Assembly (NCBI RefSeq): GCF_000196175.1 | Contig: NC_005363.1 | Coordinates: 558,001-622,000 of the forward strand | From: Bdellovibrio bacteriovorus HD100 | GTDB lineage: Bacteria > Bdellovibrionota > Bdellovibrionia > Bdellovibrionales > Bdellovibrionaceae | Direction of reading: 5' to 3' | DNA length: 64,000 bases | Part shown: positions 4,130 to 39,572 of the stretch, piece after piece | Layout of the letters: the number at the start of each line of letters is the position of its first letter | How positions within the stretch are numbered: position 1 is the stretch's first letter | Notes under the pieces: generated by a model | Told to the model about the DNA's origin: nothing | Databases searched by the model: none | Seen by the model: the letters and a program-made list of their open reading frames with translations, nothing else | Position numbers and translations under genes: made by a program

Positions 4130-4954
4130 ATGGGCTTAAGAATCGCAACAAACACCGCATCTATCGCAGCACAACGCGTGCTATCCAAACAACAGAAACG
4201 CGCAGAGCATGCCGCACAGGCACTGGCTTCTGGTAGCCGTATCGTAAATGCGGCCGACGACGCCGCGGGCTTGGCGATTTCTGAGAACTTCAAAGGACAA
4301 TTGAAAGGTATCGGTCAGGCGCGAAACAACGCCAACAATGCCATCTCATTTGTTCAGGTCAGTGAGGGGGGCTTGAATGAGGTCTCCAACATTCTGGTGC
4401 GTCTGCGAGAGCTGGGCGTACAGGCCGCTTCCGATACTGTGAGTGACACAGAGAGGGAGTTCCTAAATAAAGAAACCCAACAACTTATCCAAGAGGCCGA
4501 TCGTATTGCCAAGACCACGGTCTTCGGTACGAAGAAAATGCTCGATGGTACTGCCGGAGCGATGGAGTTCCAGGTGGGTGCTTACTCGGATGAGAACAAC
4601 GTTATTAAATTTGAATTTGATGCCGACTCGACGGCGGCGGCACTGGGGATCGACTCGATTGCCATGGCGGACAGGGGGGATGCGCGGGCATCTCTGGAGC
4701 AGGTCGACCAGGCAATTGAAAAGGTCTCGGGTATGCGAGCGAACTTCGGTGCGATGCAATCGCGAATGGAGTCCGCAGTGAGCAACCTTGACGTGTCCTA
4801 TGAAAACTTGTCAGCGGCGAACTCTCGTATCCGCGACACCGACGTGGCGAAAGAAACGGCCGAAATGACATCTGCAAGTATTCTGCAAAATACAGCGGTG
4901 TCGGTTCTGGCTCAAGCCAACCAGTTGCCACAAGTGGCAATGAAGTTGGTCTAA
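4130..4954 (+). CDS. fliC: Flagellin (first of two in this window)
   Basis: A 274-residue flagellin, the polymerising subunit of the flagellar filament, exported by the flagellar type III apparatus with help from FliS. The N-terminal D0/D1 region (residues ~1-140) contains the typical [17 protein letters not shown] segment and VSEGGLNEVSNILVRLRELG. The C-terminal D1/D0 region contains [18 protein letters not shown] and ends with the hydrophobic helix VLAQANQLPQVAMKLV. The hypervariable middle is very short, as in other small bacterial flagellins. ATG 4130 follows a strong purine-rich site AAGGGGGG. It is paralogous to the gene at 6214. Two hairpins follow the stop. Confidence 0.97.
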   Translation: MGLRIATNTASIAAQRVLSKQQKRAEHAAQALASGSRIVNAADDAAGLAISENFKGQLKGIGQARNNANNAISFVQVSEGGLNEVSNILVRLRELGVQAASDTVSDTEREFLNKETQQLIQEADRIAKTTVFGTKKMLDGTAGAMEFQVGAYSDENNVIKFEFDADSTAAALGIDSIAMADRGDARASLEQVDQAIEKVSGMRANFGAMQSRMESAVSNLDVSYENLSAANSRIRDTDVAKETAEMTSASILQNTAVSVLAQANQLPQVAMKLV

Positions 4955-5079: not shown

Positions 5080-5109
5080 CCCTGGGGGCATCCGCCCCCA
5101 GGGATTTTC
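5080..5109 (+). terminator. Strong GC hairpin, likely flagellin terminator
   Basis: CCCTGGGGGC (5080-5089) and GCCCCCAGGG (5094-5103) form a perfect 10-bp stem with a 4-nt loop, followed by ATTTTC. This is the best terminator candidate for the first flagellin. It lies 10 bp from the REP copy at 5114. Confidence 0.65.
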
Positions 5110-5113
5110 AGAA

Positions 5114-5144
5114 GGTGCCTGGTGATTTTTTACACCTACAGCGC
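5114..5144 (-). repeat. REP-like repeat, copy A (3' side of RAYT gene)
   Basis: Read on the minus strand it is GCGCTGTAGGTGTAAAAA followed by ATCACCAGGCACC, one base different from copy D at 39538. It contains the GTAG tetranucleotide followed by an imperfect GGTG/CACC hairpin, the organisation expected of REP sequences recognised by RAYT proteins. The stop codon of the transposase (TAG) lies inside this GTAG. Confidence 0.75.
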
Positions 5145-5792
5145 GTCAACTTCTAAATGGGATGGACGACTTTTATAGGGGCTGATTTTAAAAACACTTC
5201 TTCTCAGACCTTTCTGAATCTTTTCCCAATCTTCGTGTCCGGTATCCGTATTCAGCCACTCCAGGGTGGCAAACCGTGAGCCCCAGGTTTCCCAGTGAGT
5301 GTCATCACATATGGGAACTTCCATCTTTTCCAATCCAAGAAGACTTCTTAATGTCGAATATCGATAGTCTTCGACTCTTTCGCAAAGCCCTGCCATGACC
5401 GGATTTCTATATAAGTATTTGTAGGCATGTTGATAGTAGAGCTGGTTCGACAGCAGACTTCGGTGAAACCTTGATCCGTAAGTGACATTGATTCGGTTGC
5501 TGAATGTCCGAAGGTCTCTTCCGGATTCCGACATGAAGAAGCGCATTGCTTCACTTAAATTTCCATTGGGTGCTGAGGCTATCAGATGGAAGTGGTTGCT
5601 CATCAATACAAATGCATGAATTCGAATTTCAAACGCCAGATGTATGAAGTGCAGATGCGTGGTCATCACTCTCCAAACATTCTCTGGCTCTACAGAAAAC
5701 CAGTCGCGATTAATACATCTGGCAGTGATGTGATATGGCAGTTCCGTATGACAAATGAATCTGTTTCTTCCCATACATAAGTAGTCATTCAA
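5136..5792 (-). CDS. REP-associated tyrosine transposase (RAYT, IS200/IS605 TnpA-like)
   Basis: A 218-residue Y1-type HUH nuclease. The HUH motif is NHFHLIA (His67 and His69), preceded by the family segment FVLMSN. The nucleophilic tyrosine should be one of those in LYYQHAYKYLYRNPV (residues 119-132), which matches the family YIxxNPV pattern. RAYTs are single-copy domesticated transposases that nick and mobilise dispersed REP hairpins. Here the gene is bracketed by inverted copies of one repeat (5114-5144 and 5853-5889). The start may be TTG 5792 (preceded by AGGAA) or ATG 5774. It sits between two flagellin genes, on the opposite strand. It appears intact. Confidence 0.9.
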   Translation of the reverse strand: MNDYLCMGRNRFICHTELPYHITARCINRDWFSVEPENVWRVMTTHLHFIHLAFEIRIHAFVLMSNHFHLIASAPNGNLSEAMRFFMSESGRDLRTFSNRINVTYGSRFHRSLLSNQLYYQHAYKYLYRNPVMAGLCERVEDYRYSTLRSLLGLEKMEVPICDDTHWETWGSRFATLEWLNTDTGHEDWEKIQKGLRRSVFKISPYKSRPSHLEVDAL

Positions 5793-5852
5793 ATGAAATT
5801 CCTAGATCAAAGCCTTTCAGACCTTCGTTTTGGATCCGGATTCTGACTTTTT

Positions 5853-5889
5853 GATGCGGTGTAGGTGTAAAAAGTCACCAGGCACCTTT
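5853..5889 (+). repeat. REP-like repeat, copy B (5' side of RAYT gene)
   Basis: Contains GTAGGTGTAAAAAGTCACC then AGGCACC, in inverted orientation to copy A. It is identical over its full 37 bp to copy C at 12008. GGTG/CACC pairing around TAAAAAGT gives a short hairpin, and AGGTG/AGGCACCT a longer alternative. Confidence 0.8.
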
Positions 5890-6213: not shown

Positions 6214-7047
6214 ATGGGAATGAGAATTTCTACGAACGTATCCGCTATCAACGCACAGAGAACAATGGTGAACTCTCAGCGTGAAATCGGTAAATCAATG
6301 TCACAACTAGCATCCGGCTCCCGCATTAATAAAGCGGCGGACGATGCGGCAGGGTTGGCGATCAGTGAAAACTTGAAATCACAGATCAGATCCCTGGGCC
6401 AAGCTTCCCGAAATGCGAACGATGGTATCTCCATGGTTCAGACGGCAGAGGGTGGTTTGTCCGAAATTTCCAACATCCTGACTCGTATGAGAGAATTGGG
6501 TGTACAGGCTTCCTCTGACACTATCGGTGATACAGAGCGCGGCTTCCTGGATAAAGAGGTTCAGCAACTTAAATCTGAGGCTCAGCGTATCACTCAGACT
6601 ACTAGATTCGGTACAACAAAACTTCTGGATGGTTCCGGCGACTCGTTCGACTTCCAGGTAGGTATCAACAATGACCCTGAAGCAGATAGAATCTCCTTCA
6701 ACGCCGGTGAAACAAATGCATCCACGTCCTCTTTGGGAATTGACGGTTTCGACTTCTCTTCCAAAACAGGCGCGCAAGACGCTCTTGCAGCGATCGACAC
6801 GGCTCAGTCTCAAGTGAACGGTTACCGCGCAAATCTCGGTGCCCTTCAGAACAGATTGCAGTCCACAGTTGATAACTTGGGTGTGCAACACGAGAACATC
6901 TCCGCAGCTAACTCTCGTATCCGTGATACAGACGTAGCAGCAGCAACTGCAGAGACGACTCGTAACCAGGTACTTTTGCAGGCGAATACATCAGTGTTGT
7001 CTCAAGCCAACGCGATGCCAAACTCTGCACTAAGACTGATTGGTTAA
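6214..7047 (+). CDS. fliC: Flagellin (second of two in this window)
   Basis: A 277-residue flagellin paralogue. The N-terminal D0/D1 region carries [18 protein letters not shown] and [20 protein letters not shown]; the C-terminal part carries [19 protein letters not shown] and ends [17 protein letters not shown]. The middle (~145-190) is short, with the sequence [21 protein letters not shown] 6214 follows ATGGAGG at suitable spacing. Bdellovibrio uses several flagellins in one sheathed polar filament, which explains adjacent, diverged copies. Followed by a strong hairpin at 7114. Confidence 0.97.
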
Positions 7048-12007: not shown

Positions 12008-12045
12008 GATGCGGTGTAGGTGTAAAAAGTCACCAGGCACCTTTT
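12008..12045 (+). repeat. REP-like repeat, copy C
   Basis: Identical to copy B over GATGCGGTGTAGGTG, TAAAAAGTCACC and AGGCACCTTT. It lies in the intergenic region between the divergent ppc and flaG-like genes. It is solitary here, without an inverted partner. Confidence 0.8.
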
Positions 12046-25036: not shown

Positions 25037-26257
25037 TTAGAACAAGTTACGGAAGAAGCTCAGCATTCGGCTTAAGAAGCCTTCTTCTTTCAGCGGGGTC
25101 ACTTTGCCGCCTACAGAGCTTGGGCTGCGGCTGTCATCGGCACACTTATAAGTGATGTCGATGGTGCGGCCTGCAGGAACCGCCGTGCTAAAGACGATGC
25201 TTTGACCTTCCACGCGGGATTCAACAGTCCCGATACTTGGTGTGATGGTCACATTCACAGTACCCACCGGAGTGCACTCCAAAGGCACAGAGCTTAAAGA
25301 GTCTTTGATCTTATCAATGAACAGATTCAAGTTCGTGGAATAGTCACTGTCACAGATACTGCCGATCCCACCACCAGTCAGCTGGGACAGTTCCGCGTAC
25401 TTAAAGCCGTAATGGCTTTTCGCGCCGCCAGCGTCCTGGGACGCCTTACAGGAAGAATCACCCGGCTTTACGATGATGGAATTCACCGTGAAACGCTGAG
25501 TAGCCCCGAAAGTGGAGCGAACATAGTCGACAAACACTTGTGGCTTGTCTTCATTTTCAAGAGCTTTCAATTCACCCGCGTAAACCTGCTGGGAAGCATC
25601 GCCACCGATACTGCGCTCGTCTTCGTCAGAGATAATGATATAAGCGATACCGGCATCCGCACGATAGCAGCCGTTGTTTGGATTGTAGTGATAGTCACCG
25701 TTATAAACATGGTGATAAGCGGCTTTGATCGCGCGCTCATCGTCAGAGTTCTTATAACCGGCACCAATGTATTCAATAGTGTGGGCGAATACGGTGTTCA
25801 AATCCACGTTGCTGGATTTTTTAAGCACCATGCCCAGGGAAGTGGAAGCAGTGGCGTTTTTCTGCCAGTAAATGGAAGCACCCCACGCATTTGTCGTGTC
25901 AGTCACCGGAAGAGCACGGGTGACAGTGGCACACATCTGCCAATCGATATTGGAGTTTTGCAGTTTGGTGATAAAAGCGGAAAGATTCGCCGCCAGTTTG
26001 CGGTTGTCCGGAAGCATGGAGTTGGAATCGTCGATCACCAGAATGATATCCAGCTTATTGTCAGAGGCTTGAACCGTGCTGTTATAGTGAACGTCACGAA
26101 GAGTGGCGCCCGGAGTTGGAACCGGATCGGGAGTTTTTCCATCTGTACCGACATCATCTTTGGAAGGGGCAGAAAATTTTACAGGTCCACAGGCACTCAA
26201 AGCCAACACCAGCAACACAGAGGCCCAACGCACCCCTTGCCATTTTTTCAACGACAT
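25037..26257 (-). CDS. VWA-domain lipoprotein
   Basis: A 406-residue lipoprotein; ATG 26257 is preceded by GGGGAG, and the longer frame has no ribosome site. Lipobox LALSAC gives Cys23, followed by a Pro/Thr/Asp linker. The von Willebrand factor A domain has an intact MIDAS start in DIILVIDDSNSM (DxSxS), expected to bind a divalent cation and a protein partner. C-terminal region contains paired cysteines. Probably in the periplasm or on the outer membrane surface, possibly for adhesion. GGACC-type palindromes lie upstream. Confidence 0.85.
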   Translation of the reverse strand: MSLKKWQGVRWASVLLVLALSACGPVKFSAPSKDDVGTDGKTPDPVPTPGATLRDVHYNSTVQASDNKLDIILVIDDSNSMLPDNRKLAANLSAFITKLQNSNIDWQMCATVTRALPVTDTTNAWGASIYWQKNATASTSLGMVLKKSSNVDLNTVFAHTIEYIGAGYKNSDDERAIKAAYHHVYNGDYHYNPNNGCYRADAGIAYIIISDEDERSIGGDASQQVYAGELKALENEDKPQVFVDYVRSTFGATQRFTVNSIIVKPGDSSCKASQDAGGAKSHYGFKYAELSQLTGGGIGSICDSDYSTNLNLFIDKIKDSLSSVPLECTPVGTVNVTITPSIGTVESRVEGQSIVFSTAVPAGRTIDITYKCADDSRSPSSVGGKVTPLKEEGFLSRMLSFFRNLF

Positions 26258-39537: not shown

Positions 39538-39572
39538 GCGCTGTAGGTGTAAAAAGTCACCAGGCACCTTTT
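39538..39572 (+). repeat. REP-like repeat, copy D
   Basis: GCGCTGTAGGTG, TAAAAAGTCACC, AGGCACCTT in plus orientation. It lies between two convergent genes, directly after the stop at 39536, and supplies the stop codon region of the minus-strand PilZ gene. One mismatch to copy A. Confidence 0.8.

Follow-up and report, generated by a model that had tools for sequence, protein, structure and literature searches.

A Y1 transposase between two flagellin genes of Bdellovibrio and the switching of its repeat family at orthologous sites

In Bdellovibrio bacteriovorus HD100, a gene for an HUH transposase stands between two flagellin genes and is bracketed by inverted copies of a repeat. The locus raises the question of whether the enzyme and the repeat belong together, and of what becomes of the repeats elsewhere in the genome when the enzyme changes. 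The locus was analysed in a stretch of 64,000 nucleotides (the window), in the complete genome of 3,782,950 bp that contains it (G000 in the comparisons) and in related genomes.

The transposase gene and its inverted-repeat arms

The features of the window, in window coordinates, are as follows.

4130..4954, plus strand: flagellin fliC1
5080..5108, plus strand: terminator-like hairpin of fliC1, CCCTGGGGGC ATCC GCCCCCAGGG ATTTT, directly outside arm A
5112..5149, minus strand: inverted-repeat arm A of the F1 family, running from GTAG to tail on the minus strand and overlapping the gene at its 3' end, stop codon included
5136..5139, minus strand: GTAG of arm A, containing the stop codon TAG (5138-5136)
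5136..5774, minus strand: Y1/HUH transposase (RAYT/TIRYT-like), 212 aa, ATG at 5774 and stop at 5136
5851..5888, plus strand: inverted-repeat arm B of the F1 family, running from GTAG to tail on the plus strand
5861..5864, plus strand: GTAG of arm B
6214..7047, plus strand: flagellin fliC2
12016..12041 (genome 570016-570041), plus strand: dispersed F1 copy; G008 has an F3-type repeat at the identical base position
39543..39568 (genome 597543-597568), plus strand: dispersed F1 copy, adjoining the stop codon of the upstream gene

The layout given in the preliminary description was confirmed in most respects. An HUH transposase gene is present, with a Pfam Y1_Tnp match and the HUH and Y---NP motifs, although its start is better read as 5774 than as 5792. 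The two inverted flanking copies are 38 nt each and 92% complementary, the interval of 5114-5889 is accurate to 2 nt, the TAG at 5138-5136 lies within the GTAG at 5139-5136, and a flagellin gene is found on either side. Each arm reads 5'-TGAYGCG..GTAG-GTGT-AAAAA-RTCACC-AGGCACCTTTT-3', and its elements are the outer AAGGTGCC, the GTAG and an A-tract.

The Pfam match was obtained with the open reading frame at 5136-5792 on the minus strand (E 6.1e-6, over the cut-off), and the motifs are NHFH (HUH) and YLYRNP (Y---NP). As relatives begin at the methionine of residue 7, the likely start is the ATG at 5774, relative to which the longer frame has six extra residues from a TTG. In the alignment, H61, H63 and Y120 are invariant across 46 sequences. 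The AF2 model (pLDDT 90) has as its top PDB match the TnpAREP structure 4er8 (E 1.8e-8), and the structure of IS608 is also matched (E 2.2e-4). With an HUH motif, a single catalytic tyrosine and the Y1 fold, the protein belongs to the Y1/HUH superfamily, and single-strand HUH chemistry is plausible from this fold. No C-terminal helix-turn-helix was detected in the transposase, the Pfam search returning Y1_Tnp only; C-terminal helices are seen in the AF2 model. There are four Y1 matches in the genome, and with the window protein as query only one other was found, 48% identical. The gene, which we take to be Bd0605, shows purifying selection (dN/dS about 0.05-0.1 for the copies in G000, G005 and G009).

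In 16 Bdellovibrio species and in one further genus, the slot between these two flagellins is occupied by a gene of this kind; in two of the 16 species it lies on contigs cut near one flagellin, and in five the gene has the opposite orientation. In HD100, fliC1 and fliC2 are Bd0604 and Bd0606 (PMC2791853). The terminator-like hairpin of fliC1 is kept across species, and the divergence between transposase alleles starts immediately beyond it.

Recognition format and relation to known families

The repeat had been described as GTAG followed by an imperfect hairpin, the recognition format known for RAYT proteins. The GTAG is there in both arms, but the hairpin is not better than expected: folded as single-stranded DNA, F1 reaches -2.7 kcal/mol, with a z of -0.6 against shuffled sequence. 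None of the F1, F2, F3 and GTAGACCC arms folds better than its shuffles (z -0.8 to +0.6), and strong palindromes are seen in some distant relatives (z -2.6 and -4.3). A short GTAG-hairpin (GGTG...CACC) was considered as a conserved structure; it is weak, and it is absent from F2, F3 and the GTAGACCC family. The lack of hairpin conservation that the preliminary description had named as counting against it was found for this short hairpin.

The protein points the same way. TnpAREP contacts GTAG through W94, Q95, E100, H101 and R104 (PMC6006769); in the alignment these residues of 4er8 are Y, G, R, S and S in our protein, so that 0/5 are kept. Some relatives that have cognate repeats carry other letters where GTAG would be, for example AGCAG in G007. 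The known RAYT format is therefore not supported for this repeat. The NCBIfam equivalog REP_Tyr_transpos scores 68.2 bits, below its cut-off of 80, leaving the protein outside canonical RAYT/TnpAREP.

Flanking inverted repeats beat all 207 null scores at 66 of 69 related loci. GGTRCS is found near the outer end of both arms at 49 of the 69 loci, and GTAG in both arms at 13. The common format is therefore a long terminal inverted repeat of ~38 nt with a constant outer end, AAGGTRCC, and with GTAG in a subset. At six related loci (L095, L096, L111, L124, L127 and L135) the outer arms are doubled, with two successive units on each side, which suggests that the ends may have grown in steps.

An ordinary canonical RAYT/REPtron, which recognises GTAG and a hairpin as in E. 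coli and does nothing more, would account for the GTAG of both arms and for the fold match to 4er8. It is a very unlikely explanation given the hairpin score, the loss of every contact residue and the small share of loci with GTAG in both arms. The gene appears closer to the 'TIRYT' variant than to a RAYT of the GTAG-hairpin kind. Under the name TIRYT/TIRtron, RAYT-like genes have been described whose inverted repeats are long (Di Nocera et al. 2013, PMC3733652); most of them fall in TnpAY1 subclass 2.1 (Quentin et al. 2018, PMC6006769). The likenesses are a Y1 gene within long terminal inverted repeats, some of them self-complementary, moderate dispersed families occurring as singles and dimers, and the Y---NP and NH[YF]H motifs; long flanking inverted repeats are present here (38-nt arms) and in the 66 relatives. 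Unlike the TIRYT/subclass 2.1 proteins, ours has no detected HTH tail and has YG in the W-motif instead of W[EQ]/FQ. The GGGGWSAS that is reported for most, not all, TIRYTs is absent from F1, and one relative (L104) has GGGGTCAG. The outer end AAGGTRCC is also unlike TIRYT.

With RAYT/TnpAREP of E. coli, Pseudomonas and Stenotrophomonas the system shares one enzyme per repeat family, a low-copy gene under purifying selection, intergenic inverted doublets and, in F1, GTAG. It differs in having copies in tens and not hundreds, a short hairpin that is weak or absent, no GTAG-contact residues, and a GTAG that is embedded in a longer arm and is not shared by the whole family. With IS200/IS605 elements (IS608, ISDra2) it shares the HUH/Y1 fold and, by inference from the model, single-strand chemistry. 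Unlike them, it keeps its gene at a single locus from species to species, and several near-identical gene copies per genome, as expected of IS200/IS605, were not found.

Dispersed repeats and the resident transposase

The 22-mer tail of F1 has 19 copies genome-wide at no more than 2 mismatches, and the reversed pattern has 0; the exact 19-mer occurs 8 times. Only 2 of the 19 copies lie in ORFs of at least 150 aa, as compared with 80% of random positions. Some copies form inverted pairs with GTAG facing inward and a variable core. A genome-wide scan had been proposed, and it showed REPIN-like inverted pairing and intergenic bias; with 19 copies, the family is more than the handful that would have spoken against it. 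Chance origin of the arms is ruled out by the zero-count controls and the null scores of the related loci.

F2 (CAAAAGTAAGCAGGTACCTTTT) is a second family; it numbers about 29 copies, among them five pairs with a constant 53-bp offset, and flanks a second Y1 gene at 1,866 kb. Two inverted repeats forming one dispersed unit, the REPIN arrangement, are thus found in F2 pairs and in F1 pairs. A third family, F3 (AAAAAACAACCAGGCACCTTTT), has 7 copies at no more than 1 mismatch in G000, and no F3-associated gene was found in that genome.

Several side observations concern these repeats. Another Y1 gene (L010, C1:962004) is flanked by inverted GGGACCCTCGCCC-type repeats, which are a different and possibly more classical family. 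A weak fourth Y1-like match (L012, C1:437925) is below the Pfam cut-off and has an F2 pair directly downstream. At L030, L035 and L036, in G000 and G008, several repeats have their start precisely at the TAA that terminates the preceding gene (TAAAAGGTGCC); the stop codon is thus either provided by the repeat end or followed by it. A hybrid inverted pair at C1:1785282-1785342 (L037) consists of one F2 arm and one F1 arm and is kept in G005; the same site has a single F3 arm in G008 and an F1 pair in G009.

Across species, F1 is found in 19 copies in G000, 19 in G005, 16 in G009 and 4 in G008 and is scarce elsewhere in the genus; among the F1-rich genomes, the transposase is 98-100% or 88% identical to the window gene. 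F3, in turn, has 23 copies in G008, whose own allele has F3 arms, versus 3-7 in G000, G005 and G009. Of the variant arm belonging to the G011 allele, 7 copies were counted in G011 itself and 0-2 in the other genomes. From species to species, the abundance of a repeat goes with the transposase that is resident, in support of the cognate enzyme-repeat pair that had been proposed: for F1, F3 and the G011 arm, the repeat type co-varies with the resident gene. A cognate dispersed extragenic family, often in inverted doublets, is the general feature of RAYT/TnpAREP systems and is found here.

Each of the 19 F1 copies in G000 is matched by one in G005, so the family has been static over the distance between these genomes. 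G008 still has 23 copies of F2 and G009 has 27, and an F2-flanked transposase gene was found in neither. Abundant F2 in the absence of its transposase means that repeats outlive the enzyme, which counts against the explanation favoured below.

Replacement in the flagellin slot and at dispersed sites

The flagellins and the gene between them have different histories. In G004 and G007, fliC2 is 98.4% identical and the transposase 72%; in G019 and G020 the values are 98.3% and 62%, with the gene in opposite orientation; in G000 and G008 they are 94% and 56%, and the more distant G009 keeps 88%. For the transposase tree, AU tests rejected the flagellin clades (G019,G020), with p 6e-7, (G011,G007,G004), with p 6e-5, and (G000,G005,G008,G009), with p 0.024. 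In both the G004/G007 and the G000/G008 pair, the similarity is high outside, up to the end of the element, and is lost within it. Fast divergence of one vertical gene, down to 56% between G000 and G008, is unlikely as the outgroup G009 retains 88%. At the level of sequence, these comparisons show that the transposase allele has been replaced in the flagellin slot.

The dispersed repeats have switched as well. The repeat types and site pairs of this comparison were recognised in the data and were not named beforehand. At five of the dispersed sites, as well as at the gene locus, F1 (or the F2/F1 hybrid) in G000 corresponds to F3 in G008. In G000 coordinates, the five are the following.

570024; 1785282; 2381827/84; 2674886/956; 2481969: dispersed F1 to F3 sites

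Here and at the gene locus, at least one side of the unit shows a base offset of zero. By its flagellin, G009 is the outgroup (fliC1 dS of 0.64 versus 0.13), and where it is readable, at the gene locus and three of the dispersed switched sites, it has F1. Near but inexact switches are found in G008 at 25177, 597551 and 744598, and F1 is retained there at 1269132, 2989380, 25297 and 1545457, which counts against replacement. G009 also has an empty site with clean flanks, so insertion or loss also occurs.

The second lineage is that of G004 and G007. At five dispersed loci (nine arms) and at the gene locus the outer ~19-20 nt agree and the palindromic core differs, being GTAGACCC in G004 and AGTGC in G007, in each case matching the arms of the genome's own transposase; the reverse pairing of core and transposase type was not seen among the compared G004/G007 loci. 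At one locus the outer arms share private mutations (TCTAG|AGGTGCC...GGCACTCC) and the cores differ. A core that changes while the copy-specific mutations of the outer arms are kept means that repeats are replaced in place and not merely added. One of these sites is of the AGTAC type in the outgroup G011, therefore it was G004 that changed. Together, the alignments show dispersed units or cores replaced in place, toward the type of the resident gene, in two independent lineages. Import of whole regions with foreign repeats is not favoured, since the flanks adjoining switched sites mostly match the similarity seen elsewhere, with mostly 80-100% in the first 50 bp, a few values being spoiled by small indels. 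In mixed clusters of the G004/G007 comparison (L255 and L284 versus L266 and L274), AAAAGTCCCCTGGCACC repeats of G011 type are also seen, and some sites therefore hold three or more families.

We consider it probable that an enzyme of the RAYT/TIRYT kind exchanges the cores of its own ~38-nt arm family, and that new alleles thereby overwrite old repeats. The substrate of the HUH (Y1) transposase would be the family of ~38-nt arms around the gene. A REPIN-like unit would consist of two such arms in inverted orientation around a short palindromic core, and the gene locus would be such a unit with the gene as its core. The enzyme may nick arms of its cognate type in single-stranded form close to the guide/A-tract, the core could be exchanged via a single-strand intermediate, and repeats of earlier type could gradually be overwritten by the type of a new allele in the flagellin slot. 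It is the catalysis that we infer. Repeats and gene would persist under purifying selection as a system that is slow and for the most part vertically inherited, and not as a rapidly jumping insertion sequence. More tentatively, and with somewhat greater doubt than belief, the resident transposase might recognise the conserved outer arms whatever their core and replace the core, which in the flagellin slot is the whole gene. If overwriting is true, competing transposase alleles would take over the repeat set of a genome site by site.

Recombination of the RecA type could instead have swapped the allele through the flagellin flanks, with ectopic gene conversion homogenising the dispersed repeats. 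Gene conversion has been raised in several REP papers, including PMC3116915. The flanks are long and 88-99% identical, and homologous recombination between them could explain the gene swap without any enzyme. However, the arms share only about 13-20 nt, which is short for RecA-dependent exchange, and divergence at the gene begins at the element ends in the closely examined pairs. Every exactly switched site follows the resident transposase, and an inverted gene in five species is not expected from flank recombination alone; we regard this explanation as unlikely.

The remaining alternative starts from the 'orthoswitch', in which the repeats around syntenic RAYTs belong to different classes in related strains (Nunvar et al. 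2013, PMC3686654). In that model the flanking repeats mutate, new copies spread and old ones decay, by a mechanism that was called speculative (PMC3686654). Applied to our sites, new repeats would transpose elsewhere while the old decay, and shared positions would reflect target preference, for example just beyond stop codons or terminators, or adjacent insertion followed by deletion. The copies that start at TAA stop codons are in agreement with this, as are the extra partial outer end AAAAGGTGCC beside the full copy at 1269132 in G000, the F3 that lies 82 bp from F1 at 1545457 in G008, and the empty site in G009. On the other hand, the zero base offset at most switched sites and the private outer-arm mutations kept with a changed core would both need re-insertion into the old ends, which amounts to replacement. 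Such a succession of insertion and decay seems improbable as the main process, and core exchange by the resident enzyme is preferred.

The present locus is like the orthoswitch in having different repeat classes around a syntenic gene. It is unlike it in that the gene allele itself is replaced and the old dispersed copies are rewritten at unchanged positions. No account of rewriting at orthologous sites was found in the openly accessible literature, and the accessible parts of the TIRYT/subclass 2.1 papers hold no description of in-place repeat turnover. The spread of REP-type repeats and the joint change of RAYT and repeat are an open question (PMC8266576, PMC3686654), and these sites add site-level evidence on the orthoswitch, the mechanism of which was left open in 2013. 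They offer orthologous before and after states in a culturable predator, the same site and flanks carrying another repeat type that matches another enzyme, and with such states enzyme-directed replacement, RecA conversion and fresh insertion are separable by experiment. A search of the openly accessible literature for RAYT, REP or Bd0605 in Bdellovibrio returned nothing relevant, and the gene-repeat system described here fills that gap in the REP/RAYT literature.

A further observation concerns the enzyme of G008. Its F3-type transposase (G008:C1:588184-588816, L223) is without about 50 N-terminal residues, in a genome where F3 repeats are abundant, a point that speaks against core exchange by the resident enzyme. 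Judged from the truncated reading frame, this allele may be dead, perhaps recently disabled.
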